Of a DNA stretch of 64,000 nucleotides, positions 15,344 to 59,324 are shown in pieces. Source of the stretch: Psychrobacillus sp. INOP01 (GTDB lineage Bacteria; Bacillota; Bacilli; Bacillales_A; Planococcaceae); assembly GCF_018140925.1 (NCBI RefSeq), contig NZ_CP073315.1, forward strand, positions 62,001 to 126,000. The letters are read 5' to 3'. The first letter of the stretch is position 1. Every line of letters starts with the position of its first letter. The translations under genes were made by a program, and so were the position numbers. The notes beneath the pieces are model-generated. The model was not told where the DNA came from and did no database searches. It saw only the letters and a list, made by a program, of their open reading frames with translations.

Positions 15344-15364
15344 ATGACTGCTCCTTTCTTCCAT

Positions 15365-30762: not shown

Positions 30763-32283
30763 ATGAAGTTTAAACTACCTTTCAATAAGAAACAGACAAC
30801 TATAGCAATAGATTCAATTAAAGAAGATATAGGTACGATTACTCCTTTGAAAATTGATTTTATTAAGTCCATAAAAGATGCCACCCATAATCCATCTGAT
30901 TTAATCGTTAAATCTATCCCCCCGAATATTACCCTTATTTATATAAATAATTTAGTGAATGATCAGATTATGAATGATCATATTATATCCGGTTTACAGA
31001 ATAAACCAAACGAAACTCCTGAAACTATCAAGACTGCTCTTTCCATATCGGAAGTAAATATATCTACACAATTAAAGAAAACTGTAGAATCGATAGTAAA
31101 TGGATTTGTTCTTATCCATGTGGAAGGATACTCACAGGTAATATTAGCCAATATTGCTAAAGGTGAATCCCGGAGTTTGTCGGCACCTGAAAACGAATCA
31201 CAAGTAATCGGAGCACAAGTAGGTTTTAATGAAAGCCTTTCAACAAATATTTCCTTAATTCGTCGCTATATAGTGAGTCCCGATCTTTGTAACGAAGAAT
31301 TAAAAGTTGGAAAGCACACAAATACTTCAGTCAACCTGTTATATATGAGCGGTATTGCCTCTGATCAAATGATTAATACACTGCGCGAAAGAATCACCAA
31401 TCTAAATTTAGATGCGCTAATCGATAGTGCTATTCTTTCGGAAATAATTGACGATAACTCATTATCTCCGTTTCCACAAATGCTTCTGACCGAAAGACCA
31501 GACAGATTTTGCGCTAGTCTATTAAATGGGAAATTAGGGGTTATTGTAGACGGTAGTTCCATGGCTATCATTTGCCCTCAATCGTTTATTGAATTTTTAC
31601 AAAGTCAAGAAGATCAAAATCTAAGATGGCTAATTGCTACATTTGCTCGATTATTAAGATTTACTGCTATTCTTTTATCCGTTTTTTTGACACCAATATA
31701 TGTAGGAGCGTTGACATTTCATTATGAAGTAATTCCTCAAGCCTTCTTGGTTCCGCTTAGTGAATCGAGGGCTTTAGTTCCTTTTCCACCTGTATTTGAA
31801 GCATTGCTTCTTGAATTTATTATTGAATTACTAAGAGAGGCTGGGGCAAGATTACCAACAAAAATTGGACAAACTATTGGAATCGTTGGTGGTATCGTAA
31901 TTGGAACAGCAGCCGTACAAGCTGGAATTACAAGTAATATATTACTAATATTCGTTGCATTGAGCGCCCTCGCATCTTTCACAACACCAAGTTATCTGAT
32001 GGGGAATGTTATTCGACTCATTCGTTTCCCAATTATAATACTTGCAGGTTTTTGGGGTTTTTATGGAATTATGCTTGCTTTTTGTTTTATACTCATTCAT
32101 CTATTGCGACAATCTAGCTTGGGAGCTCCATATTTGTCTCCTTTTTATCCCCCTAGGTTGAAAGATATGCGAGATAGTATTATTAGAATGCCCTTTCCAT
32201 ATACAGCGAAAAGACCTGTCCTTACAAGACCGGCAGATCAAGATAAATTCAATCCTGAACCTGTAAAACCTGATAAAAGTTGA
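30763..32283 (+). CDS. Spore germination receptor A subunit, GerA/SpoVAF family (operon 3)
   Basis: The A subunit, 506 aa. It shares with the paralogues a segment VIGAQVGFNESLSTNISLIR (about residues 146-165), TERPDRFCASLLNGKLGVIVDG (about 245-266) and membrane spans from about residue 290 to 455, including IIELLREAGARLPTKIGQTI. GAGAGGAG lies 13 bases before the ATG, a little far. First gene of the rightward A-B-C operon, the classical gerA order. Confidence 0.93.
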   Translation: MKFKLPFNKKQTTIAIDSIKEDIGTITPLKIDFIKSIKDATHNPSDLIVKSIPPNITLIYINNLVNDQIMNDHIISGLQNKPNETPETIKTALSISEVNISTQLKKTVESIVNGFVLIHVEGYSQVILANIAKGESRSLSAPENESQVIGAQVGFNESLSTNISLIRRYIVSPDLCNEELKVGKHTNTSVNLLYMSGIASDQMINTLRERITNLNLDALIDSAILSEIIDDNSLSPFPQMLLTERPDRFCASLLNGKLGVIVDGSSMAIICPQSFIEFLQSQEDQNLRWLIATFARLLRFTAILLSVFLTPIYVGALTFHYEVIPQAFLVPLSESRALVPFPPVFEALLLEFIIELLREAGARLPTKIGQTIGIVGGIVIGTAAVQAGITSNILLIFVALSALASFTTPSYLMGNVIRLIRFPIIILAGFWGFYGIMLAFCFILIHLLRQSSLGAPYLSPFYPPRLKDMRDSIIRMPFPYTAKRPVLTRPADQDKFNPEPVKPDKS

Positions 32284-32299
32284 ACTGAAGGTGAAATGA

Positions 32300-33421
32300 A
32301 TGAAAAATTCTATACAACTTAGCCCCAAAGATATGATTAATGCTTATTTGCTTTTTTTTGTAATTCATAGCACTCAAATTGGGGTTGGAATACAGGGGTT
32401 TCAACGGATTGTGTACCAAGATGCAAAACAGGATGCATGGATTTCAGTTTTACTTGCAGGTCTTGCCACACATATCGTCGCTATTTGTATGATTAAAACG
32501 TTAGAGGTTTACGGTTCCAATGACCTTTATGGGATCCAACAAGATATTTACGGAAAATGGATTGGCAATTTTTTAAATGCCCTTTATATATTGTATTGCT
32601 TCGTAGGATTCTTTTCTGTTCTACGGAACTATATTGAAGTTATACAAGCATGGATTTTCCCTGATATAAGTACTTGGTTTCTTTCGGCTACTTTACTAAT
32701 AATCGTCATATATGCGTTTACAGGTGGACTTCGAGTGATGGTTGGTGTTTCTTTTTTTAGTGTCGTACTCGCTCTTTGGATTTTGCCTATGTTAATATTT
32801 CCAATGAAGTTTTCAACCGTAGACAGCCTACTTCCTATTTTGGAGGCAAATATTAGCTCCATACTAAAAGGTACCCAATCCATGACTTTTACAATTATCG
32901 GCTTTGAAATACTTAATGTGATCTATCCCTTTATAAAAGACAAGAAAAATGTAAGGAAACATACGCATTTAGCTTTGTTGGCTACGACTTTTGTATATCT
33001 GGCTTTCATGATGGTTTCAATCACCTACTACAGTGAAGGAAAGTTACTTAAGACGATATGGGCGACATTAACATTATTTAGTTTCATCAGTTTCCCTTTT
33101 ATGGAGAGATTTGAATTTGTCGCTATTTGTTTTTGGATGTTGATCATTTTGCCAAATCTTTGTCTTTATTTATGGGCTGCTTATCGTGGAACTATTCGAT
33201 TAGTAAAAATAAGCGGAACGACATTCGTTTGGATATTCTCTCTTTTCGCTCTCATTGGTACACTAATCTTTCAAACGCGTACCCAGATAGATACGATTAA
33301 CACTCAATTTGGAAAAGTGGCTTTTTATATCGTGTTTGTTTACCCTATTTTCTTATTTATAATTACCATGCTGAAAAGAAAATTCACATCTCAGAAGGAG
33401 CAAAAAAATGAGGAAGTTTAA
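32300..33421 (+). CDS. Spore germination receptor B subunit, GerB permease family (operon 3)
   Basis: A ten-span permease-like subunit, 373 aa. HSTQIGVGIQGFQRIVYQDAKQDAWISVLLA (about residues 18-48) is the family N-terminal region, with G-I-Q in place of the usual G-x-x-PS. GAAGGTG lies before the ATG. It starts 17 bases after the A gene and overlaps the C gene by 14 bases. Likely the germinant-sensing subunit of this receptor. Confidence 0.9.
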   Translation: MKNSIQLSPKDMINAYLLFFVIHSTQIGVGIQGFQRIVYQDAKQDAWISVLLAGLATHIVAICMIKTLEVYGSNDLYGIQQDIYGKWIGNFLNALYILYCFVGFFSVLRNYIEVIQAWIFPDISTWFLSATLLIIVIYAFTGGLRVMVGVSFFSVVLALWILPMLIFPMKFSTVDSLLPILEANISSILKGTQSMTFTIIGFEILNVIYPFIKDKKNVRKHTHLALLATTFVYLAFMMVSITYYSEGKLLKTIWATLTLFSFISFPFMERFEFVAICFWMLIILPNLCLYLWAAYRGTIRLVKISGTTFVWIFSLFALIGTLIFQTRTQIDTINTQFGKVAFYIVFVYPIFLFIITMLKRKFTSQKEQKNEEV

Positions 33422-34532
33422 TATCTATTTCATTCTTCTTTTTTTAGTTGGTATATTAACCGGATGTGCAGAAACAAATATTCTTGATCGAGTAGGGTTA
33501 ACCACTTTAGTAGGCTATGATGTGGGAACCGAAGAAAAAATAGCCACTACCGCGGTTATTCGCGAAGTAAACCCTGAATTTCAAAGTAATGTGGAAATTG
33601 TCTCAACTGAGAATAACACTAGTAAAGGGAGTCGGATGAAGTCTAATCGTAAATTATCGAAAAAAATCACCGTCGGCCAAATGAGGGTTGTTTTGTTTGG
33701 CGAAGAGTTGGCTAAAGATAATCTTCATTATTACATTGATACACATTTAGAAAACGCTAGTGTAAGTAATAGTCTTTACATGGCAGTTGTAGAAGGCAAA
33801 ACAACTCCATTACTTGAATACGAATATAAAAATATTGATGATATTGGGCAACATATATTTAGGCTACTCGAACAAAACATAAAACAGGAATATATGATTT
33901 CGGCAACTCTTCATGAAATTGCACACGATTATTATTCGGTAGGAAAAGATTTCGCTATGCCAATTATAAAAAGAGATGAAGAATTCGTTGAAATAAGTGG
34001 AATAGCTATATTTAAAGGTGGCAAAATGGTAAGCACACTCCCAGTTAAGGATAGTTTTTACATCAAGCTTGTGAGAGATAGTTTTAAGTCAGGATTATTC
34101 GAAACTATCCTAAAAGATCAGGATATTCCCACCGACATACTAAAAAATCCACCTGAACAAATTCCAGTAGCTTTTGATGCCATTAACTCAAAAAGAGAAT
34201 TGAAATTAGTTGATGCTTCTACTCCAGAATTTGACCTAAATCTGAAAATAAAAGCAAGATTATTAGAAGTATATCCAGATGTTAATCTAGGGGATCCTAA
34301 AGTTGTTGCAAAACTTGAAAAAGCGGTTAGTAAAAATTTATCAAGAGAAATATCCAGGATAATTGCCCAATGCCAGGATGTAGATTCGGATATTTTTGGC
34401 TTCGGGGAGAAATATAGAAGCTCTGTGAGAAACTCTAAGCTGACGAAGGAAAAATGGCATAAGTTGTATAAAGATATGAAAGTAAATGTGAATGTAGATT
34501 TTGTTATATTAAGAAATGGTGTTTTTGAATAA
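33408..34532 (+). CDS. Spore germination lipoprotein, Ger(x)C family (operon 3)
   Basis: The C subunit, 374 aa. The lipobox is LTGC (Cys about residue 20), followed by AETNILDRVGLTTLVGYDVG in place of the common WNRREL sequence, a diverged but recognisable start. The C-terminal SDIFGFGEKYR (about 325-335) is a family hallmark. GAAGGAG precedes the ATG inside the end of the B gene. No clear terminator follows; the nucleoside hydrolase gene converges from the other side, with a 61-base gap. Confidence 0.88.
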   Translation: MRKFNIYFILLFLVGILTGCAETNILDRVGLTTLVGYDVGTEEKIATTAVIREVNPEFQSNVEIVSTENNTSKGSRMKSNRKLSKKITVGQMRVVLFGEELAKDNLHYYIDTHLENASVSNSLYMAVVEGKTTPLLEYEYKNIDDIGQHIFRLLEQNIKQEYMISATLHEIAHDYYSVGKDFAMPIIKRDEEFVEISGIAIFKGGKMVSTLPVKDSFYIKLVRDSFKSGLFETILKDQDIPTDILKNPPEQIPVAFDAINSKRELKLVDASTPEFDLNLKIKARLLEVYPDVNLGDPKVVAKLEKAVSKNLSREISRIIAQCQDVDSDIFGFGEKYRSSVRNSKLTKEKWHKLYKDMKVNVNVDFVILRNGVFE

Positions 34533-46823: not shown

Positions 46824-48335
46824 TTACTCCGAACCCCTCTTTGTTAAAATTATATTTGAGCTTTCTCCAGCCAGCTCGTATAACTTCTTTTTATCAATTT
46901 TCCCTACATCTGTTCGGGGCAATTCATCTACAAAGATAATCTTTTTAGGAACTTTAAATCCACCTAAATAATCTTTGCAGTGTGAAATTAGTTCTTCCAC
47001 AGAAGAAAGTGTATGTGCATTATTACAGATAAAAGCTGTGACACATTCTCCCCATTTTGTATCTGGAATGCCGATAACGGCTGCTTCTCGAACACTCGAA
47101 TGCAAAATTAGACACTGCTCCACTTCTTGTGGATAGACATTCTCTCCACCTGTAATAATCATTTCCTTCTTTCTACCTACAATATAATAGTCACCATCTT
47201 TATCGAATCTTGCTAAGTCTCCGGATTTTAACCAACCGTCTTGAAGGGTAAGCTCCGTCTCTTCCTCATTGTTCCAATAATGGCTGAATAGGTGTTTTCC
47301 TGAAATATAAAGCTCTCCTACTTCATCTACACTGCATTCTCGACCTTCCTTGTTCATTATCTTTACTTCATTAAACTGCATACTCTTCCCAACCGAGCCT
47401 TTTTTGCTATATGCAATTAATGGATCAACATAAAAATTATTTGGACCTGCTTCAGTTAATCCATAGCCTTCTTTAAATAAGATACCTTTTTCATTGAACT
47501 TATCATAAATAGAATGAGGACATGGCGCTCCTCCAGCTAGAAATACTTTTACAGTTGGAAAAGAAGCAGTTTTTATATACTCCGTTTCAAGCATCGCCTG
47601 ATACATAGTTGGAACGAAAAGTGAAATTGTAGTCTTGTATGTATTTATTGCTTTCAAGGCCTCTTCGGCTCGAAAACGACTACCTATGACGACCGTTCCA
47701 CCTGCCATCAATATAGGAATACAAAGTGCATTAATGCCCCCTGTGTGAAACATAGGCATATAATTTAAAGTACAATCTCTGTCACTAAGTCCCCAGCTGA
47801 TAATAGTATTCATCGCATTCCAATTAACTGCATTAAATGATAAAACCACGCCTTTTGGTTTTCCTGTAGTTCCTCCTGTGTAAATAATCATCCAAGGATC
47901 CGCCGAACTCCATTTATAATTAATAAAATGATTGGTTGATATTCCTATCGTCTTTGTGACTAATACTAACTCTACATCCGAAAAAGCTTCACCAGCTTGT
48001 TGATGCTCCTCATCACAAATAATTAGTACTGGCTTACAATCATCCAATATATACCGTAACTCGTTGCTGCTTAAGCGGAAATTCAAGGGTACATAAATGA
48101 GTCCTGTCATACCACAAGCGAATAGAATAGCAAATAATTCAATCCTGTTTTCGGACAAAACTACGATACGATCGCCTTTTTCATAATCTTGTTGTTGAAA
48201 ATAATGAGTCCACTGAGAAACCTGACTGATCAACCTTTCATAGCTCCAATGTCTTCCTGTGCAACTATCGATAAGAGCAGTCTTAGTTGGCGTCAGCGCT
48301 GCACGTTTATATATCCATGCTTGTTCTGTATACAT
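46824..48335 (-). CDS. Acyl-CoA ligase (AMP-binding, adenylate-forming)
   Basis: An ATP-dependent acid-CoA ligase of the acyl-CoA synthetase family, 503 aa, in the usual range. Motifs: P-loop YTGGTTGKPKG (about residues 152-162), A5 YGLTEAGP (about 293-300), A7 GWLKSGDLARFDKDGDYYI (about 366-384), hinge GRKKEMIITGGENVYPQEVE (about 386-405), and the catalytic Lys near the end in DVGKIDKKKL. It activates the substrate as acyl-AMP then acyl-CoA. First step after import is the simplest role in this island. GGAGGGGG lies upstream of the ATG; it follows the SDR gene closely. Confidence 0.9.
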   Translation of the reverse strand: MYTEQAWIYKRAALTPTKTALIDSCTGRHWSYERLISQVSQWTHYFQQQDYEKGDRIVVLSENRIELFAILFACGMTGLIYVPLNFRLSSNELRYILDDCKPVLIICDEEHQQAGEAFSDVELVLVTKTIGISTNHFINYKWSSADPWMIIYTGGTTGKPKGVVLSFNAVNWNAMNTIISWGLSDRDCTLNYMPMFHTGGINALCIPILMAGGTVVIGSRFRAEEALKAINTYKTTISLFVPTMYQAMLETEYIKTASFPTVKVFLAGGAPCPHSIYDKFNEKGILFKEGYGLTEAGPNNFYVDPLIAYSKKGSVGKSMQFNEVKIMNKEGRECSVDEVGELYISGKHLFSHYWNNEEETELTLQDGWLKSGDLARFDKDGDYYIVGRKKEMIITGGENVYPQEVEQCLILHSSVREAAVIGIPDTKWGECVTAFICNNAHTLSSVEELISHCKDYLGGFKVPKKIIFVDELPRTDVGKIDKKKLYELAGESSNIILTKRGSE

Positions 48336-48353
48336 ATGGTACAGCCCCCTCCA

Positions 48354-49094
48354 TCACATCATAATACCGCCATCTACTTGTAATACATGACCATGTACAT
48401 AACTAGATTCTTCCGATGCTAAAAACAGATAAGCGTTTGCTATATCCCTTGGATCACCTAAACGCTGCAAAGAAACGACGGATTTCATTTGGTTGATGAT
48501 CGTTTCAGGCATTTTCGCTACCATTGCAGTGCTCGTAAAACCTGGTGCAACTGCATTGACATTTATACCTTTTCTCCCTAACTCTTTTGCCCATGTTTTG
48601 GTCATCCCAATTACAGCAGCCTTGGATGCTGCATAATTTGTTTGCCCCACATTTCCATACACACCACTTACAGAGGAGGTATTAATAATTTTACCGTGAC
48701 CTTGCTTCACTAGATGTGGTACAACAGCCTGAGTGCAGTTAAATACTCCGGTTATATTTACATGAAGAACGCTTGAAAAGTCATCCTCAGTCATTTTTGT
48801 TAGCATGGCATCCCGAGTAATACCAGCATTATTAATAAGAATATTAATCTGCCCAAAATAATCCATTGTTTGTTCTATAAGAGCATCCACACTATCTCTT
48901 TTTGCAACATCCACTTGAATAAACTTAACATCATAGCCTAGTTTGTTTAGTTCTACTTCTTGTGTTGCTCCTGCCTCAGCATCATAGTCCGCTAATACAA
49001 CCTTTGCCCCTTCTTCCGCAAAACGTTGTGCAGCAGCCAAGCCTATTCCATTCGCTGCTCCTGTTATAATGGCTACTTTATCCTTTAATCTCAT
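48354..49094 (-). CDS. SDR-family oxidoreductase, 3-oxoacyl-ACP reductase-like (FabG-like)
   Basis: An NAD(P)-dependent short-chain dehydrogenase, 246 aa, from the ATG at 49094 (AAGGGG nine bases upstream). The cofactor motif TGAANGIG (about residues 12-19), NNAG (about 87-90), catalytic Ser (NTSSVSG) and Tyr-Lys (YAASK, about 152-156) are complete. The end VHGHVLQVDGGIM is FabG-like. In this cluster it may reduce or oxidise a beta-oxo or hydroxy acyl-CoA. Confidence 0.92.
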   Translation of the reverse strand: MRLKDKVAIITGAANGIGLAAAQRFAEEGAKVVLADYDAEAGATQEVELNKLGYDVKFIQVDVAKRDSVDALIEQTMDYFGQINILINNAGITRDAMLTKMTEDDFSSVLHVNITGVFNCTQAVVPHLVKQGHGKIINTSSVSGVYGNVGQTNYAASKAAVIGMTKTWAKELGRKGINVNAVAPGFTSTAMVAKMPETIINQMKSVVSLQRLGDPRDIANAYLFLASEESSYVHGHVLQVDGGIMM

Positions 49095-49195
49095 AGTTTC
49101 ATTCCCCTTTATACCGGTTTTACGGCTGTTTATCCCTGATTGGTTCAACTAACAATCAGAGGGGATGAAGATCCCCCTAAGATAGAAGTTTCACT

Positions 49196-50077
49196 TTATA
49201 AAAACGCTTCAATTTTATCCGTTAGCTGCTCTAAGTCATCTATTAGTGGTGAGTGTCCACTATCTATTAAAGGAATATACGTGGCATTTTCTCCTAAATC
49301 TGCTACGATTTCTTGAGTCATTTCTTCTGAAACGACATAGTCCCTATCTCCTCTTAAGATAAGAACTGGTATTGTAATTTGCTTTGCTTGGTCTGTACCT
49401 TCAGAAAGTCCGTTATTGGTTCCGCTAATATTGAAAGTATTTAACGCGTGATAGACATCAGCCAAATTTCGCTGTGTTAGCATATCGTTCACATATTCCT
49501 CATAAGCGGTTTCATCAGGCTTTTTATGGGTATAGATTGCTGCATTCCAGACTGCTTTTAATCCTTCTTTATTACCAGTATCATATAAACCTTGAATGGC
49601 AAGAGTCTTTGTTGGATTTTCTTCTATTTCCTCGATTGTTTTTAGTCTTCTGTTTAAGTCCGGTGTCCCGTCTTCTTTTACCCCATAAAACGGATAGCCT
49701 CTAGTCGATGCAGATGCAAGCAATACTAGCTTTTCACAGCGACCAGGATGGTCCACTACATATTGCATACTAATGGCGCCTCCAGTAGACCAGCCAATTA
49801 AATAGAAATTCTGTAAGTCTAATGCATTCACTATCTCACTTAAATCATTCGCAAAATCTTTAATTCCTTGAATTCTATTATGATAAGTCGATTCCCCGAA
49901 GCCTCTTAAATCAATAGCATATATCGAAAATCTTTTATCTAGTCTTTCTAGCAAAACATCCCAATGCTTAGATGATGTCATATTCCCATGGACGAGCACG
50001 ATTGTTTCCTCTCCACCAGAACGAACACGGTAAGCAATACTATCGCCACTTGAAAGCTGAATCTTAGGTAAACTCAT
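49196..50077 (-). CDS. Alpha/beta-hydrolase
   Basis: A 293-aa serine hydrolase with the alpha/beta fold. The nucleophile elbow is GWSTGG (Ser97), the acid probably D in RGDRDYV (about residue 246) and the base H in SGHSP (about residue 277). VLVHGNMTSSKHWD (about 27-40) gives the oxyanion loop. The ATG at 50077 has GAGGAGGG seven bases upstream. Position between the SDR and KASIII-like genes suggests an ester, lactone, thioester or diketone substrate in the same pathway. Confidence 0.88.
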   Translation of the reverse strand: MSLPKIQLSSGDSIAYRVRSGGEETIVLVHGNMTSSKHWDVLLERLDKRFSIYAIDLRGFGESTYHNRIQGIKDFANDLSEIVNALDLQNFYLIGWSTGGAISMQYVVDHPGRCEKLVLLASASTRGYPFYGVKEDGTPDLNRRLKTIEEIEENPTKTLAIQGLYDTGNKEGLKAVWNAAIYTHKKPDETAYEEYVNDMLTQRNLADVYHALNTFNISGTNNGLSEGTDQAKQITIPVLILRGDRDYVVSEEMTQEIVADLGENATYIPLIDSGHSPLIDDLEQLTDKIEAFL

Positions 50078-50090
50078 ATACACCCTCCTC

Positions 50091-51098
50091 TTAATTTCCC
50101 CATTTAATTGCAACTGCTCCCCACGCATAGCCAATACCTGCACTTACTAGAACAACTAAATCTCCATTTTTTAGTTTCTTTGCTTCTTGGGCTAGTTCTA
50201 AAGAAATAATTTGATCCATCTGTCCAATATGTCCGTAATCACTCAAATAAATAGACTGATCACTCGTTAAACCCAATTCATTTAACACAAAGTCATGTGC
50301 AGATTTTTTCATATGAAGAATGCCTAAATAGTTGATATCCTTCTCGGAATATCCACTTTTCATTAAAGCATTTCTAATAACTAGTAAAAAGTTTTGCATG
50401 GATTTTTGTTCTAGTCTTGCTTTCATTCCTACAGGATCCATTACGTCCAAACGATAAAGTCCCTGCTCTAAATGGATAGATGTCAAAGGCTCTTTTGTTC
50501 CTCCAACAGGTACTAGTACATCTTCAGAGAAGGATCCATCTGTGATTAAATCTGATTCTAAAAGAGTATTTTCATAGTAATTTTTCTTTAAAATCATTGC
50601 TGCTCCACCAGCCCCTAGATTAAACATGAATCTAGTTCGTTCATTTGTATAATCTATCAAATCACTGTTTCGATATCCTCCTGCTAAAAGTACTGTATTT
50701 ATAGTCGGATCTGATTCCATTAAACTTTTTGCGACCTTCATGGCCATGATAGTGGTTCCACAGCGTAATGCAACATCAAACCCCCATGCATGATAAGCGC
50801 CGAGCTCTTCTTGAATTTTAATAGCAGCTGTCCACAGAGGATATTCCTTATGTTCTTCGCCGATGTAAATTATCAAATCAATTAATTTAGGATCTATACT
50901 TCCTTTTTGCAATGCTTTTTCAGCAGCTTTTATGGCCATGGCTACAGTATGATCTTCTGGACCAGGGATTGGTTTTTGTGTTATTCCCATTTTGTTTTTA
51001 ACTACTGACAGCGGAAGTCCGGATTTCTTGACAATATCTTCTGCTGTCATTACATTTTCGGGAATATACACACCTGTACTTGCAATTCCAATGGTCAT
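50091..51098 (-). CDS. KASIII-like 3-oxoacyl synthase/thiolase-fold enzyme (C-H-H variant)
   Basis: A 335-aa thiolase-fold protein of the FabH type. The nucleophile is C113 (FDVALRCGTT) and the first base H262 (GILHMKK). The third position, Asn in FabH (GNTS), is replaced: SDYGHIGQMD puts H290 there. C-H-H triads are usual in KAS I/II, not KASIII. Gly-rich GAGGAAMIL and the C-terminal VSAGIGYAWGAVAI fit the family. Being in a catabolic cluster it may act on acyl-CoA in either direction. It overlaps the livM gene by four bases. Confidence 0.85.
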   Translation of the reverse strand: MTIGIASTGVYIPENVMTAEDIVKKSGLPLSVVKNKMGITQKPIPGPEDHTVAMAIKAAEKALQKGSIDPKLIDLIIYIGEEHKEYPLWTAAIKIQEELGAYHAWGFDVALRCGTTIMAMKVAKSLMESDPTINTVLLAGGYRNSDLIDYTNERTRFMFNLGAGGAAMILKKNYYENTLLESDLITDGSFSEDVLVPVGGTKEPLTSIHLEQGLYRLDVMDPVGMKARLEQKSMQNFLLVIRNALMKSGYSEKDINYLGILHMKKSAHDFVLNELGLTSDQSIYLSDYGHIGQMDQIISLELAQEAKKLKNGDLVVLVSAGIGYAWGAVAIKWGN

Positions 51099-52099
51099 TT
51101 AGCTAACCCCTTTCTTTTCGGGGAAATAGAAATTTTTATAGGATTCTTTTTCTTCCAAAATAAATGTTTAACGGTACCAACAATACCTCTAGGAAAGAAA
51201 ATAACGGCTAATATATACACTATTCCAAAGAAAATAATCCACCGCTCAAATATAGGATGCTCTTTTGCAAGGCCAGATAAGTAATGTTGAGCTAGTTCTA
51301 TTACACCGGCACCTATAATCGGCCCTATTAAAGTACCAACTCCTCCGATGATTGTCATGAGGAGAGCATCTAAGGTTATATCCATCGTCAGGACACTCGT
51401 ATTTACGAATCTCAGCGAAACTGCGTAAAGTGATCCTGCTAAACTTGCTATTACACCAGCCACCACTGACGCAATTACTTTATAGTGCAACGTTTGAAAG
51501 CCCAATGATTTGGTACGCTGTTCATTTTCCCTAACTGCTATTAAAACTCTACCTAATGGTGAATCTACAAATCTACGTAGACAGAGGTACACTAATACCA
51601 AACAGCCAAGAACGAGTAAATAATACATCATGCGATCTTTAAAAAACTCTGGTGCTCGAAATGTAAATCCATCGTTGCCAAACGTTAAGGTTCTCCATTT
51701 CTCTGCTAATACTAAAAACAACCCCGAGACTGCCATTGTCAGCATAGCGAAGAAATGACTTTTTAATCGCAACGTTAGCAGTCCGACTAAAAAGCTAATG
51801 ATTCCTGCAATACACATTCCAACAGCTATCGATAAAACAAACATTCCAACTGTTGGTTCAAAACGATCGAGCATAATAGCAGTAGCGTAAGCGCCCATCC
51901 CGAAAAACATCGCATGACCAAACGATACAATGCCGGTATATCCTAGTAATATGTCATAGCTCATTGCTAGGATGGAAAAGATAAATATTTGAGTCAGTAA
52001 TATTGTCCATGTACGTGAATCGGATACAAAAGGAAAAATGGCTAAAGCGACGACAATAACAAATAATATAATCTTATTAACTTGGAATGTTGACTTCAT
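51095..52099 (-). CDS. livM: Branched-chain amino acid-type ABC permease LivM
   Basis: A 334-aa inner-membrane permease of the LivM family, about nine or ten spans, with the conserved GYTGIVSFGHAMFFGMGAYATAI-type region (about residues 52-75), where FGHA is typical. It partners LivH to form the channel of an importer. The ATG overlaps its neighbour KAS gene end. Importers of this type carry branched-chain amino acids, but also short-chain amides, urea or aromatic acids. Confidence 0.93.
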   Translation of the reverse strand: MKSTFQVNKIILFVIVVALAIFPFVSDSRTWTILLTQIFIFSILAMSYDILLGYTGIVSFGHAMFFGMGAYATAIMLDRFEPTVGMFVLSIAVGMCIAGIISFLVGLLTLRLKSHFFAMLTMAVSGLFLVLAEKWRTLTFGNDGFTFRAPEFFKDRMMYYLLVLGCLVLVYLCLRRFVDSPLGRVLIAVRENEQRTKSLGFQTLHYKVIASVVAGVIASLAGSLYAVSLRFVNTSVLTMDITLDALLMTIIGGVGTLIGPIIGAGVIELAQHYLSGLAKEHPIFERWIIFFGIVYILAVIFFPRGIVGTVKHLFWKKKNPIKISISPKRKGLAK

Positions 52100-52105
52100 T
52101 TTGTA

Positions 52106-52966
52106 TCATCCTTTCGCCGTGAACAAGCCTTGCGGACGGAATATTAATACGATTGCCATAAGCATCATATTGACCGCAAGCGATAAAGCTGGGACATAGT
52201 AAGCCATGAAGCTACCAGCAAGCCCTACTAATATTGCAGCAAGAAGTGAGCCTGGAAAACTACCCATTCCACCAATAACTACAACGATGAAAGCGAGAAT
52301 TGCAAATTCCATTCCCATCTCTGCGTAAATTACTCCGGAATACGGTGCCATAAGCACCCCACTTAACGCAGCTAGTGCAGCGCCAACCATAAATACATAT
52401 AAAAATACTTGCTTAATATTAATACCGAGTGCCTGCACCATCTCTTTGTTCATTACCCCTGCACGAACGATTAATCCAATTTTTGTACGCTTCAAGATGA
52501 ACTGAAAGATTCCAAACACGATAAATCCAATGATAATAATAAATAACCGATACTTGATAATGATTACATCACCAATTTCCCAGCTCCCCGATAAAAGGGG
52601 TGGAGTTTTAGCAGCAAGTTGATTTGGTCCAAAAACGACCTTTAGCATTTCGGATAATACGATCATAAAGCCAAGTGTGATGAGTATTTGCTGTACGTGA
52701 TTTCCATAAACTGGCGTTATAATTAGTTTTTCAGTTATAAATCCAAGAACAACTCCTGTTAATATCGCGCCAAGTATTGCTAGGGTAAAACTATCTGTTA
52801 CACCGTAAAACCAAACGCCTGAAAACGCACCCCAAGCAAATAGACCACCATGGGCGAAATTCAATACATCCATCAAACCGAATATTAACGTTAGTCCAGC
52901 AGCTAAGAGAAATATTAACATCCCCGTTGCCAAACCATTAATTAATAAGTTGATTAGTAACTCCAT
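52106..52966 (-). CDS. livH: Branched-chain amino acid-type ABC permease LivH
   Basis: A 286-aa permease of the LivH family. GLTLIFGLMDVLNFAHGGLFAWGAF (about residues 24-48) is the family hallmark, and FAILAFIVVVIGGMGSFPGSLL (about 223-245) another. Seven bases separate it from livM and 12 from livF. Substrate set by the binding protein. Confidence 0.94.
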   Translation of the reverse strand: MELLINLLINGLATGMLIFLLAAGLTLIFGLMDVLNFAHGGLFAWGAFSGVWFYGVTDSFTLAILGAILTGVVLGFITEKLIITPVYGNHVQQILITLGFMIVLSEMLKVVFGPNQLAAKTPPLLSGSWEIGDVIIIKYRLFIIIIGFIVFGIFQFILKRTKIGLIVRAGVMNKEMVQALGINIKQVFLYVFMVGAALAALSGVLMAPYSGVIYAEMGMEFAILAFIVVVIGGMGSFPGSLLAAILVGLAGSFMAYYVPALSLAVNMMLMAIVLIFRPQGLFTAKG

Positions 52967-52978
52967 TTAATAACCTCC

Positions 52979-53686
52979 TTAGCCAATTCCTAGGTACTTA
53001 CGCTTGAGCTCTTCATTTTCAATCAGTTCCTGCATAAGCCCGGACTGCACAGTTTCTCCATCATCGATTAGTGTGTATGTATCACCAATTTTGCTAGCCA
53101 TCATAAAATTTTGTTCCACTAGAATAATTGTTGTTTGTTTTTTCATTTCAATGATTGCTTCCATTACTTTTTCTATTACGACAGGTGCTAGACCTTTGGA
53201 AGGCTCATCGATTAATAGCAGTTTACTTTCATTTACGAAAGCTCTTGCCATCGAAAGCATTTGCTTTTGACCTCCGGATAAATGTCCACCATCTTTTTTC
53301 CAATACTTTTTTAAATCTGGAAATAGCTCTAGTACATATTCCTGTCTCGCTAAAGCGGCATCATCTTCTTTTCTGATTGCCACTTTAATATTCTCTTCAA
53401 CCGTTAATGCACCGAAAATCCCTTGATCTTCTGGTACATATCCAATACCCTTTGAGGCGATATGGTGGGTCTGTGTTTTTGCAATAGATTTATTGTCAAA
53501 TGTGATTTGACCTGAAGTGGCAGGGGTTAAACCCATAATTGTTTTTAATGTAGTTGTTTTCCCCGCACCATTTCGACCAAGTAATACACTGACTTCACCA
53601 GCTTTTGCCTCGAAGGAAACGCCTTGTAAAATGTGATATTGACCTATATGCGTATGCACATTCTCTACTTTAAGCAAGATGCTCAT
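52979..53686 (-). CDS. livF: ABC transporter ATPase LivF
   Basis: The 235-aa ATPase. Walker A LGRNGAGKTT (about residues 36-45), signature LSGGQKQ (about 135-141), Walker B LLLIDEPSKGLAP (about 154-166), as in LivF. It overlaps the livG gene by 17 bases, indicating tight coupling. Confidence 0.94.
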   Translation of the reverse strand: MSILLKVENVHTHIGQYHILQGVSFEAKAGEVSVLLGRNGAGKTTTLKTIMGLTPATSGQITFDNKSIAKTQTHHIASKGIGYVPEDQGIFGALTVEENIKVAIRKEDDAALARQEYVLELFPDLKKYWKKDGGHLSGGQKQMLSMARAFVNESKLLLIDEPSKGLAPVVIEKVMEAIIEMKKQTTIILVEQNFMMASKIGDTYTLIDDGETVQSGLMQELIENEELKRKYLGIG

Positions 53687-54437
53687 CGTATAATCCCCCT
53701 AAATAAGCATGTTGAACGGTTTCATTATTCATAATTTCCATAGGTGTACCGTCCGCTAGTAATCTACCATTGAACAAAACCATGATGGAATCAGATAAAT
53801 CCATAATCATATCCATTTTGTGTTCGATCAATAATATCGTTCTTTCGCCCGTTTGCTTAATCTGTTTAATAACATCCAAAATAGCTGGTACCTCTTCTAA
53901 TGACATCCCTGCTGTAGGTTCATCTAGCAGTAAAACCTCTGTGTCTAGAGCTAGCAACATTGCAATCTCTAACTTTCTCTTTTCACCATGCGAGAGTTGT
54001 GTGGCAAATGCATTTGCTTTGTTAGAAAGTAGAACGATTTCTAATAACCTTTCTGCTTGTATTTCTAAATCTTTGTATGAGGTAAAATGTCGGAAAATTT
54101 GATATCTAATTTTCTCTTTAGACTGAACTGCTAGGCGAACGTTTTCAATGACGGTTAAATTAGGAAAAACATTGGTTATTTGAAATGACCGTCCAAGTCC
54201 TTTCCGAGTACGAGCAACTGAGGATTTTCCAGCCAGTGATTCCCCACGAAAAAACACATCTCCACTAGTCGGTTTTAGTTCCCCACTTATAAGATTAAAA
54301 AAGGTTGTCTTGCCTGCCCCATTTGGTCCGATAATAGATTTAAAATGTTTTTCTGGCATCTCAAAATTGACATTATCTACTGCGGTTTGCCCACCAAATT
54401 TTATCGTTAAGTTTTCTGTACGCAATATTGGTTCCAT
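53670..54437 (-). CDS. livG: ABC transporter ATPase LivG
   Basis: The 255-aa ATPase. Walker A GPNGAGKTTFF (about residues 37-47), signature LSHGEKR (about 144-150, a common LivG variant), Walker B LLLDEPTAGMS. LivG-type insertion after the signature is normal. It follows livK by 100 bases with a strong hairpin between them. Confidence 0.94.
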   Translation of the reverse strand: MEPILRTENLTIKFGGQTAVDNVNFEMPEKHFKSIIGPNGAGKTTFFNLISGELKPTSGDVFFRGESLAGKSSVARTRKGLGRSFQITNVFPNLTVIENVRLAVQSKEKIRYQIFRHFTSYKDLEIQAERLLEIVLLSNKANAFATQLSHGEKRKLEIAMLLALDTEVLLLDEPTAGMSLEEVPAILDVIKQIKQTGERTILLIEHKMDMIMDLSDSIMVLFNGRLLADGTPMEIMNNETVQHAYLGGLYDEHLA

Positions 54438-54460
54438 CCTTTATACCCCTTTCCAAAATC

Positions 54461-54501
54461 ACTCTCCATAGGATAGAGAATTGTTCTATCCTATGGAGAG
54501 T
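54461..54501 (-). repeat. Perfect 17-bp intercistronic hairpin between livK and livG
   Basis: Arms of 17 bp (54461-54477 and 54485-54501) around GAATTGT. There is no T run on either strand, so it is not an efficient terminator. In binding-protein operons such hairpins protect the upstream message, giving more binding protein than membrane parts; that is the likely role here. Confidence 0.75.
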
Positions 54502-54536
54502 GAGCGACCCAAGATAAATAGGTCGTCACTTTACCA

Positions 54537-55784
54537 TTATTTATTATTTAATATTGGTGGCTCCGTTTCTTCTGGGGAAAGCTCTCTTATTAGAACAGGA
54601 ACTGGATAATCCACACCATCTTGTTTTTCTAACTTGATCGAATATAGCGTTTGCAATGCTTGGTGATCCTCTGGACGGAAAGTCATTGTTCCTTTAGGTG
54701 TTTCAAATGACATTCCTTCCATGATCTTAATCATTTCATTGCCGTCTGCATTTCCTCCTGATTTTTCTAGTGCCTCCACAATGGCAATTGCTGCTGTCAT
54801 ACCGCCAGGAGTAAATAAATCAGGCACTTCTCCGTTAAAACGTTTTTTATGTTCTTCGACTAACCAATCATTAATATCATTATCAGGTAGAGTGTGATAA
54901 TAAACAGAGAATCCTTCCATTCCTACAAGTGGCTCCATAATAGACAGTGCTGGAATATCAGGAGCTCCAGTCGAAATTTTGATGCCATTTTCCTGTAGCT
55001 TCAAATCTGCTATTTGGTTCCAAGGTGAGTTAGCTCCTGCCCACACGACAAATAAGTAATCGGGTTTTGCTTGAATGATTTTTTGTAGATTAGACGTAAA
55101 ATCTGTAGCTGCAGGATCTGCAAATTCTTCTAACACTATTTCTGCACCTAGTTCTTCAGCTGCGTTTTTAAATGCAGCAACTCCATCCCAACCAAACGAG
55201 TAATCTGGAGCAAATGTTGCTATCTTCACACCAGGCTTGGCGATAGCTGCAGCACCTGCAACAGCATCTTGAGAAGAGTTTCGACCAGTTCTAAAAAGAT
55301 AAGGATTAAATTCAGAACCAGTAATGCTATCAGCAACAGCAGGTTCGACAATCATAATTTTTTCGTATTCTTCTGCTAATGGGAGTACCGCTAACGTGTC
55401 ACCGGAGCTAGAAGATCCAACTAAGAAATCAACCTCATCCTCTTCTAATAGTTTCGTAGCTTTTTGTACCGCTACTTCTGGCTTCGTTTCTGTATCTTCA
55501 AAAACAACTTCTATTTTCTTTCCTGCTACCTCCATTGTCCCGTCAGTAGCATATTCTAAACCTAGTTCAAATCCATTTCTTGTTTGCTTCCCGTAAGATT
55601 CCAAAGCCCCGGTTAATGAAGCAAGTACCCCAATTTTGATCGTTCCACCTTCTTCTGTAACTTCTCCAGAGGTGGTAGTTGTTTCACCCTCAGCTTCTTC
55701 AGTCGTACTTGCTTTATCACTACAAGCCGCACTAATGATAAGTAAAAATAAGAGAGTTAATAATAATTTCCACTTTTTAACCAT
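54537..55784 (-). CDS. livK: Branched-chain amino acid-type ABC substrate-binding lipoprotein LivK
   Basis: A 415-aa lipoprotein that captures the substrate outside the membrane. Signal peptide of about 19 residues with lipobox SAAC (LLIISAAC), then a Thr/Glu-rich linker and a Peripla_BP_6 type I domain (IKIGVLASLTGALESYGKQT at about residues 52-71; ATKLLEEDEVDFLVGSSSSG). The domain leans to amide, organic-acid or aromatic binders as well as leucine, so substrate cannot be read. GAGGGGG lies six bases before the ATG at 55784. First gene of the leftward liv operon. Confidence 0.92.
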   Translation of the reverse strand: MVKKWKLLLTLLFLLIISAACSDKASTTEEAEGETTTTSGEVTEEGGTIKIGVLASLTGALESYGKQTRNGFELGLEYATDGTMEVAGKKIEVVFEDTETKPEVAVQKATKLLEEDEVDFLVGSSSSGDTLAVLPLAEEYEKIMIVEPAVADSITGSEFNPYLFRTGRNSSQDAVAGAAAIAKPGVKIATFAPDYSFGWDGVAAFKNAAEELGAEIVLEEFADPAATDFTSNLQKIIQAKPDYLFVVWAGANSPWNQIADLKLQENGIKISTGAPDIPALSIMEPLVGMEGFSVYYHTLPDNDINDWLVEEHKKRFNGEVPDLFTPGGMTAAIAIVEALEKSGGNADGNEMIKIMEGMSFETPKGTMTFRPEDHQALQTLYSIKLEKQDGVDYPVPVLIRELSPEETEPPILNNK

Positions 55785-55805
55785 GTTCATCCCCCTCAAC
55801 ATTTT

Positions 55806-55819
55806 TGAAAGCGCTATCA
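55806..55819. promoter_or_regulatory. Perfect CcpA cre site in the livK leader
   Basis: TGAAAGCGCTATCA agrees at every position with TGWAANCGNTNWCA. It lies about +6 to +19 relative to the predicted livK start point, where CcpA represses by blocking the polymerase. It implies carbon catabolite repression of the island. Confidence 0.7.
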
Positions 55820-55831
55820 TATTTCTGTTTC

Positions 55832-55865
55832 ATCATACAAAATAGGAGTTACAAAAGAGTTACAA
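55832..55865 (-). promoter_or_regulatory. livK promoter with 11-bp-spaced direct repeats (SARP-type site)
   Basis: Leftward the sequence TTGTAACTC occurs twice, 11 bp apart, and the second copy ends 8 bp before TATGAT (complement of 55832-55837). There is no good -35 hexamer at the normal spacing. Direct repeats 11 bp apart ending 8 bp from the -10 are the hallmark of SARP-activated promoters; the adjacent regulator has a SARP-type C terminus. Confidence 0.6.
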
Positions 55866-55899
55866 AGAAGACATTGCTCTAAAGAGCAATGTCTTCTTT
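55864..55899. repeat. Perfect 17-bp hairpin abutting the livK promoter
   Basis: Arms 55864-55880 and 55883-55899 around AA. It touches the first SARP-type repeat. It may insulate the promoter from read-through from the regulator gene, or regulate it. Confidence 0.6.
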
Positions 55900-56086
55900 G
55901 CGACGAGCTGTGCACAGGAGCAAAGTAATTTGAATTTTATTCTAGTTGGAATGGGATATTTTCCTAACCAAATAATTCAGCATTCTTTATACATAAGTAG
56001 AGTTAAAATTCAATTTCTCCTCACGTTGGAGAAAGAAAAAATAGACCTAACGGAAATCTTGAATTCTTATTTTATTGTCTAAATAT
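55900..56086. other. Short stretch between the livK promoter region and regulator terminator
   Basis: AT-rich, no gene or motif recognised. Confidence 0.4.
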
Positions 56087-56118
56087 AAAAAAGCAGAAAG
56101 AGTACTCTCCGCTTTTAT
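56087..56118 (-). terminator. Terminator of the MalT/SARP-type regulator
   Basis: Leftward AAAAGC and AGAGT pair with ACTCT and GCTTTT, with a small internal loop, followed by six T. The last codons of the regulator form part of the stem. Confidence 0.7.
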
Positions 56119-59100
56119 TCGTAACCAGTAATCATTTCAAACATTTGAATGGTTGTAGACATTGGTTCTATATTAAGCTCCTTCTCTAGTACTTGCACGC
56201 AGCGATCATACCATTTAACAGATTGGCTTCTGTTTTGAAGCTGATAATAAGCAAACATTAATAAGCGGTAAGCTTCCTCCCAAGTTGAATCATATATTAA
56301 TAGTTTTTCTGCCCAATAAATCGTTTTCTCGAATTCTTTTAATCTAGTATAGGTTTGGGAAAGTCGTTCTAATACCTGGATGAATAATTGCTGTACTTTA
56401 TCTCGTTCCGAGTGAATCCATTCAATCATAATCCTATTTTCAAATAGTTCACCTTTATATAAATGGACAGCTTTTAGTAAAAGTTCTTTTGAAAGATGAG
56501 GAGACATTTCCTCCATTCCACTCTTAGCAAAATGATTAAAATCCCGAACATCACTTCCTACATAAGCATTCGGGTTTAACTGATACATCGACTGCTTGCG
56601 CAATATAAAGTAGGATTCTTCACGTGCTTGCCTATTCGGTTCAAGTACCTTTAATAAAGAATTCAACGTAACCTTGAAATCTCGGTCTAATTTTTTTGTA
56701 TCGCTTTCCCCCCAAAGCTTTTGTATCAATTCTTCCTTTGGAACAAAACGGTGGTTCTGTAAGTAAAGGTATGCAAACAATTCCTTAGATTTATCTCGTT
56801 GCCATTTGCGATCATTTACTTCATCAGTTCCCATATATAACGTGAAAGGTCCTAAAAGACGAAGATAAAGTGTATAACCGGGATAATTGGTTTGAGTTCG
56901 GATATTTAACTTATTTACGATTTGTTGAACATGCTTATTGTCGTTATGAATCGTATAAACCTTTTGCAGAATAGGATAGTTTGTTTGTAGATCTGTCGGA
57001 CCAAAAACAGTTCGGTTTTGTAAAAAGAAGTAATAATTATGCATAGTGCACAATTCCATAAAACACTTAGCGTGCTCACTGAACGAAGCTTCCTCATTTA
57101 TCACATTGTAAATACGCATTAACCAATAATGCGAGATCATTTCTCCATAAACATCCTCACAATTAGTGAATAATTCATTTGCTTGTCTCAAATGCTCTAA
57201 AGCTTCTATAAACTCAGTTTTTTCCAAATAGACGATACCAAGACCCAATAATATATAGGCAGACAGCCAGTAGTCATTTACTTTTTTTGTCTCACGTAAA
57301 CCTTTTTCTCCATAGTCAATTGCTTCTCGGAAAAACCCTTGACGGGATTTTAAAATAGAAAGTCCCATATATGGCTCAGCTTTCGCTCTAGAAACGTTCA
57401 ATTCATCCATTTTTTGAATTGCTTGCAAATAACATACTTCCGGTGTTTCAAGATCAAAGGGATCAGTTAATACTTCAGAATGTCCCAGCCGGATCAAACC
57501 AACTGCTTCCACAAATCCAGACTTTTCCCGAATACCTGTTTCTATTCCTTTATTGGCCGATATTTTCGCTCGCTCAACCTGCCCCGTAAGCGAATAAATA
57601 AAGGATAATAACACATCCGTTTCACGATGAGAATCTGGCAAGCTATCCTCATCCGGTGTCCTGCTTTCTAGTAATAGTTGAGATTCGATCAGCTTACCGG
57701 TCCTTAATAAAATCCTCGCATCTAAATTTCCTTCGGTTAAGATAGCAGGATCTAGTTTCTCTTTTTCTATCCAAGTTTTTGCATCGTTCGCCTTTCCTAC
57801 ATTGACTAAATTCTCCGCCATCAAACGCTGTAAAAATACTTTTTCTAAAGCAGATATGTCTCTTCCCTTTTCAGCCCACTCGATAGCTTCTTTTAAATAA
57901 GGTTGTGCCAATACTGGTTGAATTGTATCAAGGTATATATGTGCGAGTCCTGCATTTGCTCTACTAATATACAAAATATTTTCTTTTTGGAATGCTTTCT
58001 CTAAAGCGGCTTCATAGGAAAGTCTTGCCTTTTCATAAAATGCTCTGTACCGATGACACTCGCCCTCATAATAATACAGTTCATAAAAGTGATTCCGAAT
58101 AGCATTCGATAAATGGTTATCTAAGAGATCCAGCAACCAATCGAACTGCCCACCCTTGATCATTTTTGGTGCAAAGATTGTTAATAGCTTGGCTAAAAAG
58201 CGTTCATCATTTGCTTTTACCGCATGGTGAATTGCCTGAACGATGTTTTCCTTTTCCTGAAAATAACTAGCAGCCCTCCGATGAGTGTCATAAAAAGCAT
58301 GAATATCCTTTTGTTTTGATTTGGTTTCTAAAAACTGTTGGAATAGTGCATGAAATCTAAACGTATTAGAATCGCCTAATGGTTGTATAAATGCATGACT
58401 ATTAGCTAGTCGTTCCATATTTTTTGCTTCTTCATTATTAAAAAAATCCTGAATATCATTAGCAGTAAATAATGGGAAAACACTAAAATTTATAAGAGAT
58501 TGCTGATCTTCTGCTGATAAAAGTAAAAACACCTCTTCTAGTAAATAGGAAAATAAATCGTTCAAAGCTGGGTTTACTAGCTGACTAATTTGCCTATTAG
58601 TCTCTGCCACTTGCATGGCTATCAATTGTATAGCGATAGCCCAACCTTCTGTAAGTCTCATGATTTCGGAAGCATCATGAACGGTAATATGTTTATCAAA
58701 ATAGTCTTCAAAAAAGACGAGTATTTCTTCCTCTGTGAACATTAAATTTTTCTCTGTTATTTCAACCAACTGCCCACTTAGTTTTAATTTTAATAAGATG
58801 GACCATTTAGGTCTCAGCCTAGTGGAAACTACAATATGGATATTGGGAGGAAGAAATTCTATTATCTTTTCCATTATATAATTGATATGAAATACATGGT
58901 CAACAAGATGAAAATCATCTAGCACAATAGATAAAGGCTCATCAATATTAGATAGTTCATTACTAAATAGCGAATACAATTGTTGAAGCTCAGATTCTTT
59001 AGGATAAGTTGAAATTAGGTCTTTATCTTTAAAACCCCTACCGAATGTGGGGACAGTTTTTTGTATACTGCTAATGAGATGACGAAGAAAAGGAAGTATA

Positions 59101-59324
59101 CCATCATCTTCCTCCGTAATAGAGTACCAAGAATAAAGGCTTCTAGAATCTACAAAATATTGAGCAAGGGCAGAGCTTTTTCCATAACCGGCTCCGCTAT
59201 GTAATAAAGTTAGCTTCTTATGTGTGTTCATTTTTAGTTTCTTCATCAATGCAGATTTTCTCATATAAGTAGAAGACGGTATTGGCGCACTTAATTTGGA
59301 CAAAATTATGGTAGGCTGATCCAT
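56115..59324 (-). CDS. MalT/STAND-type activator with SARP (BTAD) C terminus
   Basis: A 1069-aa signal-integrating transcription factor. N-terminal STAND NTPase (about residues 1-330): Walker A GAGYGKS (about 44-50), Walker B LSIVLDDFH (about 130-138). Then a long TPR-like helical region (about 350-800) that typically binds ligand, and finally an OmpR-type DNA-binding domain plus bacterial transcriptional activator domain (about 830-1065; LRLLGPFTLYMG and KWQRDKSKELFAYLYLQNHRFVPKEELIQ). This domain order, MalT-like front with SARP rear, is known in some Bacillota. TAGGAGG precedes the ATG. The SARP-type site at the livK promoter is its probable target. Confidence 0.88.
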   Translation of the reverse strand: MDQPTIILSKLSAPIPSSTYMRKSALMKKLKMNTHKKLTLLHSGAGYGKSSALAQYFVDSRSLYSWYSITEEDDGILPFLRHLISSIQKTVPTFGRGFKDKDLISTYPKESELQQLYSLFSNELSNIDEPLSIVLDDFHLVDHVFHINYIMEKIIEFLPPNIHIVVSTRLRPKWSILLKLKLSGQLVEITEKNLMFTEEEILVFFEDYFDKHITVHDASEIMRLTEGWAIAIQLIAMQVAETNRQISQLVNPALNDLFSYLLEEVFLLLSAEDQQSLINFSVFPLFTANDIQDFFNNEEAKNMERLANSHAFIQPLGDSNTFRFHALFQQFLETKSKQKDIHAFYDTHRRAASYFQEKENIVQAIHHAVKANDERFLAKLLTIFAPKMIKGGQFDWLLDLLDNHLSNAIRNHFYELYYYEGECHRYRAFYEKARLSYEAALEKAFQKENILYISRANAGLAHIYLDTIQPVLAQPYLKEAIEWAEKGRDISALEKVFLQRLMAENLVNVGKANDAKTWIEKEKLDPAILTEGNLDARILLRTGKLIESQLLLESRTPDEDSLPDSHRETDVLLSFIYSLTGQVERAKISANKGIETGIREKSGFVEAVGLIRLGHSEVLTDPFDLETPEVCYLQAIQKMDELNVSRAKAEPYMGLSILKSRQGFFREAIDYGEKGLRETKKVNDYWLSAYILLGLGIVYLEKTEFIEALEHLRQANELFTNCEDVYGEMISHYWLMRIYNVINEEASFSEHAKCFMELCTMHNYYFFLQNRTVFGPTDLQTNYPILQKVYTIHNDNKHVQQIVNKLNIRTQTNYPGYTLYLRLLGPFTLYMGTDEVNDRKWQRDKSKELFAYLYLQNHRFVPKEELIQKLWGESDTKKLDRDFKVTLNSLLKVLEPNRQAREESYFILRKQSMYQLNPNAYVGSDVRDFNHFAKSGMEEMSPHLSKELLLKAVHLYKGELFENRIMIEWIHSERDKVQQLFIQVLERLSQTYTRLKEFEKTIYWAEKLLIYDSTWEEAYRLLMFAYYQLQNRSQSVKWYDRCVQVLEKELNIEPMSTTIQMFEMITGYE

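Follow-up and report, generated by a model that had tools for sequence, protein, structure and literature searches.

A candidate uptake and catabolic operon for polyhydroxybutyrate breakdown products in Psychrobacillus and other Bacillales

What does a Liv-type importer bring into the cell when its genes run on into those for a 3-oxoacyl-(acyl carrier protein) synthase III (KASIII)-like enzyme, an alpha/beta-hydrolase, a short-chain dehydrogenase/reductase (SDR) and an acyl-coenzyme A (CoA) ligase? The question is raised by a ten-gene island of Psychrobacillus sp. INOP01, located in the 64-kb stretch of its 4.30-Mb one-contig genome analysed here (the window; NZ_CP073315.1, positions 62,001 to 126,000). 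An earlier note had described the island as a regulated system for import, CoA activation and breakdown of an unknown substrate. That general scheme fits the evidence, but its view of the substrate was too cautious, because the hydrolase passes a curated depolymerase model (NF050089) and genes for 3-hydroxybutyrate or polyhydroxybutyrate (PHB) metabolism stand in or beside the operon in several lineages. We propose that the operon probably serves the catabolite-repressed uptake and catabolism of extracellular PHB breakdown products, namely (R)-3-hydroxybutyrate and its short oligomers. Substrate, enzyme activities, pathway direction and regulation are all predicted from sequence and gene context; that context gives good support for the substrate class, which is nevertheless unproven.

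The hydrolase (minus strand; open reading frame (ORF) 49196-50143, likely gene 49196..50077) scores 444.8 bits against NF050089, the model for intracellular short-chain-length polyhydroxyalkanoate (scl-PHA) depolymerases (cut-off 300). Its best two PDB sequences are the PHB depolymerases 8ynv (E 1.6e-77) and 8ynw. Identity to 8ynv is 44% (residues 4-285 of the 8ynv stretch), and the GWSTGG motif aligns with GWSMGG of 8ynv, the motif Ser being kept; 8ynw has Ala at that residue. The protein is thus predicted to be an intracellular-type scl-PHA (PHB) depolymerase that would hydrolyse PHB or hydroxybutyrate oligomers. A search of 398 Bacilli genomes with the 8ynv sequence gave 36 genomes with a match at E 1e-60 and no Bacillus cereus/thuringiensis copy of the cluster (best identity 56%). 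In B. thuringiensis, deletion of phaZ is reported to delay PHB loss without abolishing it (PMC4908106).

The ten genes described earlier were confirmed by coordinates, by strand (all minus) and by Pfam, which is consistent with every broad label; three starts were adjusted. Read in the direction of transcription, a regulator gene (56115..59324) is followed by livK, encoding a substrate-binding protein (Peripla_BP_6; ORF 54537-55820, likely gene 54537..55784, 415 amino acids), the ATP-binding cassette (ABC) ATPase genes livG (53670..54437, with a BCA_ABC_TP_C tail) and livF (52979..53686), the permease genes livH (52106..52966) and livM (51095..52099), the KASIII-like gene (kas, 50091..51098), the hydrolase gene, the SDR gene (ORF 48354-49148, likely gene 48354..49094) and an AMP-forming acyl-CoA ligase gene (46824..48335). 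The livK start was moved to 55784, with a ribosome-binding site immediately ahead of it, and those of the hydrolase and SDR genes to 50077 and 49094 by the onset of homology. On one side of the island lies citB (named by eye), on the other a gene for a YbgC/YneP-like thioesterase.

Both overlaps that the earlier note had reported are real, spanning 4 bases between livM and kas (51095-51098) and 17 bases between livG and livF (53670-53686); 13 bases separate the end of kas from the likely hydrolase start, and 18 the SDR gene from the ligase gene. A single operon from livK to the ligase gene is likely but unproven, because the evidence of the terminator scan is weak (14 found vs 6.7 expected) and the scan places a short hairpin between the hydrolase and SDR genes (49160-49177). 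The claim of one operon does not extend to the regulator gene, which is probably a separate transcription unit, since a terminator-like hairpin found by the same scan after it (56089..56116, minus strand) and an 18-pair stem-loop (55862..55901, minus strand) stand between it and livK. The stem-loop lacks a clear T-run and may be a terminator or a regulatory element.

The synteny check that had been suggested was carried out on the best 80 of 235 loci from a scan of genome contigs with a 17-sequence KASIII alignment, all in named Bacillales. All ten genes keep their order and strand in 59 of the 80 loci, as do the nine without the regulator in 71; the conservation of the ten-gene set is far beyond chance. 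The kas gene is present in all 80 because the loci were found through it, as are livH and livM; the SDR and ligase genes are present in 79 each, livG, livF and the hydrolase gene in 78 each, livK in 76 and a same-strand regulator gene in 62, with some absences due to contig ends. Of the 80 loci, 29 retain the 4-base overlap of livM and kas. Genera with the locus include Psychrobacillus, Sporosarcina, Paenisporosarcina, Lysinibacillus, Ureibacillus, Bhargavaea, Rossellomorea, Cytobacillus, Mesobacillus and Alkalihalobacterium.

Several of these loci carry additional genes that point to 3-hydroxybutyrate or PHB. A secreted type-1 polyhydroxyalkanoate (PHA) depolymerase is encoded between the SDR and ligase genes in two Alkalihalobacterium species (L089 and L115; 324.9 and 324.1 bits, cut-off 150), and the L089 insert is also Esterase_PHB by Pfam. 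In seven of the 80 loci (L060, L061, L069, L070, L072, L086 and L094) the same position holds a thiolase gene (475 bits for TIGR01930 in L060). A 3-hydroxybutyrate dehydrogenase over the TIGR01963 cut-off is encoded 81 bases past the ligase gene in L059, and 2.7 kb downstream of it in L075, where it lies between genes for a GntP-like permease (25.9 bits, cut-off 22.5) and a sigma-54 activator. The same order is seen in L062, with the dehydrogenase named by similarity (41%) and the permease just below its cut-off (21.4). Among other insertions between the SDR and ligase genes, L100 encodes an aldehyde dehydrogenase, ExaC (13986-15506, 996 bits), with small ORFs, similar ORFs being found in L103 and L111, and three loci of the Rossellomorea type have a secreted lipoprotein-like ORF of 393 amino acids between thiolase and ligase genes (L060 14070-15251, L070 14063-15244, L072 14051-15232).

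Plasmid-borne relatives of LivK gave further clues to the substrate. The contexts inspected were those of the seven best-ranked of 1173 plasmid records with a match. The highest identity among plasmid records is 54%, to a Mariluticola protein whose gene lies between a 3-hydroxybutyrate dehydrogenase gene (369.8 bits, cut-off 307), itself with a sigma-54 activator gene upstream, and importer genes downstream. Four further relatives occur with alpha/beta-hydrolase, MaoC, AMP-ligase, enoyl-CoA hydratase and TetR genes, and one with beta-oxidation genes. On a Chloroflexota plasmid, the gene of the LivK relative neighbours genes for a FabG-type reductase, a KASIII, a CoA-transferase, a thiolase, a zinc-ribbon/OB protein and an alpha/beta-hydrolase, together with a fragment of a SARP-type regulator (25% identical). 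The Chloroflexota KASIII is 27% identical to that of the window and reaches 178 of the 315 bits required for NF005308, keeping the Cys and neither His. Taken together, the plasmid contexts fit short acyl-CoA catabolism, and not all of them indicate 3-hydroxybutyrate.

To relate the cluster to PHB synthesis, a single set of 151 genomes from the family, which are related to one another, was searched for four protein families. The KASIII-like protein was over its cut-off in 62 genomes and the depolymerase (NF050089) in 68, comprising all 62 KASIII-like carriers and 6 of the 89 others (Fisher p 7e-36). PHA synthase (TIGR01836) was over its cut-off in 23 genomes: 8 of the 62 carriers, 5 of the 6 genomes with the depolymerase only, and 10 of the 83 with neither. 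Carriage of the cluster is therefore unrelated to the synthase (8/62 vs 15/89, p 0.65), and this nominally intracellular depolymerase adjoins an importer in cells most of which apparently cannot make PHB, since only 8 of 62 have the synthase. The genome of the window had no PHA synthase match to TIGR01836 at E 0.001; the model also matches in Caulobacter, which we take to have a class I synthase. By contrast, the synthase goes with a depolymerase that lacks the KASIII-like gene (5/6 vs 8/62, p 0.0007, for related genomes with only six in the depolymerase-only group). The secreted type-1 PHA depolymerase was over its cut-off in four of the 151 genomes, all among the 62 carriers (p 0.027).

Natural deletions in relatives divide the island. 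A genome of the same genus (G057) reads citB-regulator-hydrolase-SDR-ligase-thioesterase, and a 9.3-kb contig of a second genome (G064) reads regulator-hydrolase-SDR-ligase; livKGFHM and kas are jointly absent from both. Both genomes are PHA-synthase-positive and have no KASIII-like gene over the cut-off. LivK was not found elsewhere in G057 at E 1e-20, and the best match in G064 is only 30% identical. In the other four depolymerase-only genomes (G034, G080, G044 and G045) the hydrolase (43-52% identical) stands alone and the module is missing, with a 60%-identical SDR 4.3 kb from the hydrolase in G080; G044 is the sole one of the six without a PHA synthase over the cut-off. In two further genomes of the genus (G004 and G023) only a small ORF separates citB from the thioesterase gene, and the island is absent. 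The simplest reading of this observed structure is two modules: hydrolase-SDR-ligase, which would handle 3-hydroxybutyrate units from any source, and importer plus KASIII-like enzyme, which would be required for outside material.

The importer itself has the Liv/HAAT composition of a binding protein, two ATPases and two permeases encoded by adjacent genes, and LivK has a lipoprotein-type signal, by eye. Two tandem livK-like genes precede livG in Pseudogracilibacillus auburnensis (L059 3276-4508 and 5220-6455), their products 76% and 83% identical to the LivK of the window. The SDR is of the FabG type, passing FabG NF004198 (311.7 bits, cut-off 296) and the broad subfamily models NF005559 and NF009466.

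In the pathway that we propose, LivK would capture a hydroxyacid oligomer made available by the PHB of other microbes and LivGFHM would import it. The PhaZ-type hydrolase would cleave its ester bonds, the ligase (a proposed 3-hydroxybutyrate-CoA ligase) would form 3-hydroxybutyryl-CoA, and the SDR (a proposed 3-hydroxybutyryl-CoA dehydrogenase) would oxidise this to acetoacetyl-CoA. A thiolase, encoded in the operon in some relatives and here presumably elsewhere, would yield two acetyl-CoA. The MalT/SARP-type activator may sense the substrate, and a putative catabolite-responsive site may turn the operon off when better carbon is available.

A number of observations weigh against this proposal. 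The SDR falls below the cut-offs for TIGR01830 (290.0 of 297.75), acetoacetyl-CoA reductase (245.3 of 302.1) and 3-hydroxybutyrate dehydrogenase NF009093 (202.7 of 258), and the ligase stays under every cut-off of the 25 best NCBIfam models listed. Genes for 3-hydroxybutyrate metabolism adjoin the operon in few loci, some of them from sister species; the other inserts (ExaC in L100, the similar ORFs of L103 and L111, the unnamed lipoprotein) are uninformative on PHB; and the LivK contexts of Haematobacter and four other alphaproteobacteria, which are beta-oxidation-like or of the MaoC/ligase kind, also fit other acids. The genome of the window has no secreted type-1 PHB depolymerase over the cut-off (type 2 was not searched), and as only 4 of the 62 carriers have one, most of them would rely on others to release the oligomers. 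Two draft genomes carry the whole module argument, since four of the six depolymerase-only genomes have a lone, more distant hydrolase. Finally, a plain 3-hydroxybutyrate pathway offers no obvious job for the KASIII-like enzyme.

That enzyme belongs to NF005308 (PRK06840), with 520.3 bits against a cut-off of 315, and fails the FabH model TIGR00747 (126 bits, cut-off 292.1). Its nearest named relatives are from Psychrobacillus (identity ≤95%), and a fold search recovered the KASIII fold, with FabH-type enzymes first among the matches listed. FabH has a Cys-His-Asn triad; the corresponding residues here are Cys113-His262-His290, although His262 falls on the FabH His only after a one-residue shift of the alignment. 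Glu82 is conserved in the main and haloarchaeal members aligned, at what we take to be the position of the catalytic Glu of HMG-CoA synthase. Apart from this enzyme, the genome of the window also encodes a FabH-like protein (31% identity over residues 1-189). In three loci an extra unit of TetR, acyl-CoA ligase, MaoC-type hydratase and second KASIII-like genes lies directly upstream of livK (L074 1103-4653, L085 1765-5288, L100 1758-5284); the second KASIII-like proteins are 41-44% identical to the main one, with the catalytic Cys displaced.

The pairing of this family with an importer extends to haloarchaea: of 167 plasmid records matching KASIII, the ten highest-ranking are haloarchaeal (35.9-38.2% identical). 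In all five of these ten that were inspected (L035, L036, L037, L248 and L249), the importer genes run binding protein-ATPase-ATPase-permease-permease (one ATPase of L249 has no annotation), and the KASIII-like gene comes directly after the second permease gene, with an overlap of 4 or 8 bases. The protein of L035, the only one scored, passes NF005308 with 409.7 bits. An AMP-ligase gene lies upstream in L036, L037 and L248, joined in L036 and L248 by an alpha/beta-hydrolase gene; neither is shown near the KASIII-like gene in L035 and L249. The Salarchaeum ligase is 35% identical to that of the window, and the Salarchaeum hydrolase is far below the depolymerase cut-off (58.8 of 300).

The KASIII-like enzyme seems functionally tied to the import half, and our guess is that it works on the oligomer taken up, transferring or thiolytically releasing its hydroxyacyl groups on CoA. 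More specifically, and with considerable reserve, it might act as a CoA-dependent acyltransferase on imported hydroxybutyrate oligomers (or on CoA esters of these), opening them by thiolysis and forming with LivKGFHM a portable polyester-oligomer uptake module of Bacillales and haloarchaea. To our knowledge, no such catabolic job has been described for the KASIII fold. A slightly less doubtful possibility, compatible with uptake of PHB breakdown products, is that the enzyme is the operon's own thiolase, converting acetoacetyl-CoA and CoA to two acetyl-CoA, and that the operon therefore carries a complete pathway. The rarity of an in-operon thiolase (7/80 loci), the KASIII fold and the conserved Glu82 agree with this. 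However, those seven loci have a thiolase besides the KASIII-like enzyme, as the Chloroflexota cluster has one besides its KASIII, and G057 and G064 lose the KASIII-like gene with the importer and not with hydrolase-SDR-ligase. That the substrate is shortened, as the earlier note suggested, with this enzyme as the thiolase, is possible, but the loss of its gene with the importer in two relatives and its coexistence with a true thiolase elsewhere speak against it.

The choice of substrate meets rivals of its own. Liv-type importers serve many carboxylates, and several LivK relatives adjoin MaoC, enoyl-CoA hydratase and acyl-CoA dehydrogenase genes, so that another short hydroxy- or oxo-acid or ester (e.g. 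C5-C6 hydroxyacids), with the PhaZ-type enzyme acting as a general esterase, is conceivable; we consider it rather unlikely in view of the curated depolymerase match, the secreted PHB depolymerase inserts and the 3-hydroxybutyrate dehydrogenase neighbours in several lineages. The five Liv-type transporter proteins would also suit an importer of branched-chain amino acids or analogues with unrelated CoA genes downstream. Yet LivK shares only 24% identity with E. coli LivJ and 23% with E. coli LivK, and when aligned with both it has Val and Asp at the positions of the Thr and Glu that we take to hold the amino group in LivJ; with the downstream genes also accompanying the importer in 71 of 80 loci, this reading is very improbable, and the amino acid analogue proposed by the earlier note is disfavoured for the same replaced residues. 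Least credible of all is a purely intracellular mobilisation of PHB with an incidental importer. It would agree with the PhaZ family name and with the two synthase-positive relatives that keep only regulator-hydrolase-SDR-ligase, but 54 of the 62 carriers, and the genome of the window, have no PHA synthase over the cut-off.

Control of the operon is suggested by its upstream region. The regulator is a STAND-type activator of 1069 amino acids with a MalT-like NTPase N-terminus, a TPR middle and a BTAD/SARP C-terminus. It scores 215.1 bits against the MalT model (cut-off 537), in its N-terminal part only, and exceeds the cut-off for BTAD (PF03704) at its C-terminus; neither the regulator nor the transporter parts reach a cut-off among the NCBIfam models listed. 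Directly before the livK ribosome-binding site lies a 14-base match (55806..55819) to TGWNANCGNTNWCA, which we take to be the consensus of cre, the CcpA site; it is the sole match in the window. In a scan of the range -150 to +50 around the first start codon of livK, allowing at most one mismatch, a match was observed in 24 of the 74 relatives with enough upstream sequence vs 44 of 1550 background windows (p 4e-17, a generous value because the loci share ancestry). Eighteen of the 24 belong to L038-L058 (Psychrobacillus, Sporosarcina, Paenisporosarcina and near kin), and the Rossellomorea loci L061, L070, L072 and L094 have no match in this range.

Elsewhere in the window, inspection by eye found three spore-germinant-receptor-like sets of the GerA/B/C type inside 35 kb (2126-5871, 9552-13748 and 30763-34532) and an unusual-type UvrA-like ABC ATPase of 1088 amino acids (24392-27658).

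We found no paper on the cluster or on a Liv-type importer for 3-hydroxybutyrate oligomers in a literature search that left most subscription journals outside its range. The operon is widespread and, within the reach of our searches, undescribed, its parts being of known kinds and its combination and KASIII-like step new to us. If correct, our proposal identifies an ABC importer that takes up PHB breakdown products, a part of bioplastic turnover for which our searches turned up no described system, and suggests that many "intracellular PHB depolymerase" annotations in Bacillales denote enzymes acting on imported material. It would also make a KASIII-like family annotated merely as "3-oxoacyl-ACP synthase" a testable catabolic enzyme with a natural series of gains and losses.

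Compared with known systems, the importer shares two ATPases, two permeases and a Peripla_BP_6 binding protein with the Liv/HAAT branched-chain amino acid importers, and differs from them in the pocket residues of its binding protein and in the enzymes encoded downstream. The hydrolase resembles NF050089 depolymerases in its curated score, GWSxGG motif and identity to 8ynv, whereas its gene is part of an importer operon, in genomes where for the most part no PHA synthase was detected. The KASIII-like enzyme has the fold of FabH but replaces the Asn with His290, belongs to NF005308 and scores below FabH cut-offs. Pseudomonas sets for 3-hydroxybutyrate utilisation comprise a sigma-54 activator, a permease and BdhA; they share the proposed substrate, and such a set lies downstream of the operon in L075, with a similar one in L062, whereas the window has an ABC importer, a predicted depolymerase, putative CoA ligation before oxidation and a MalT/SARP-type activator.

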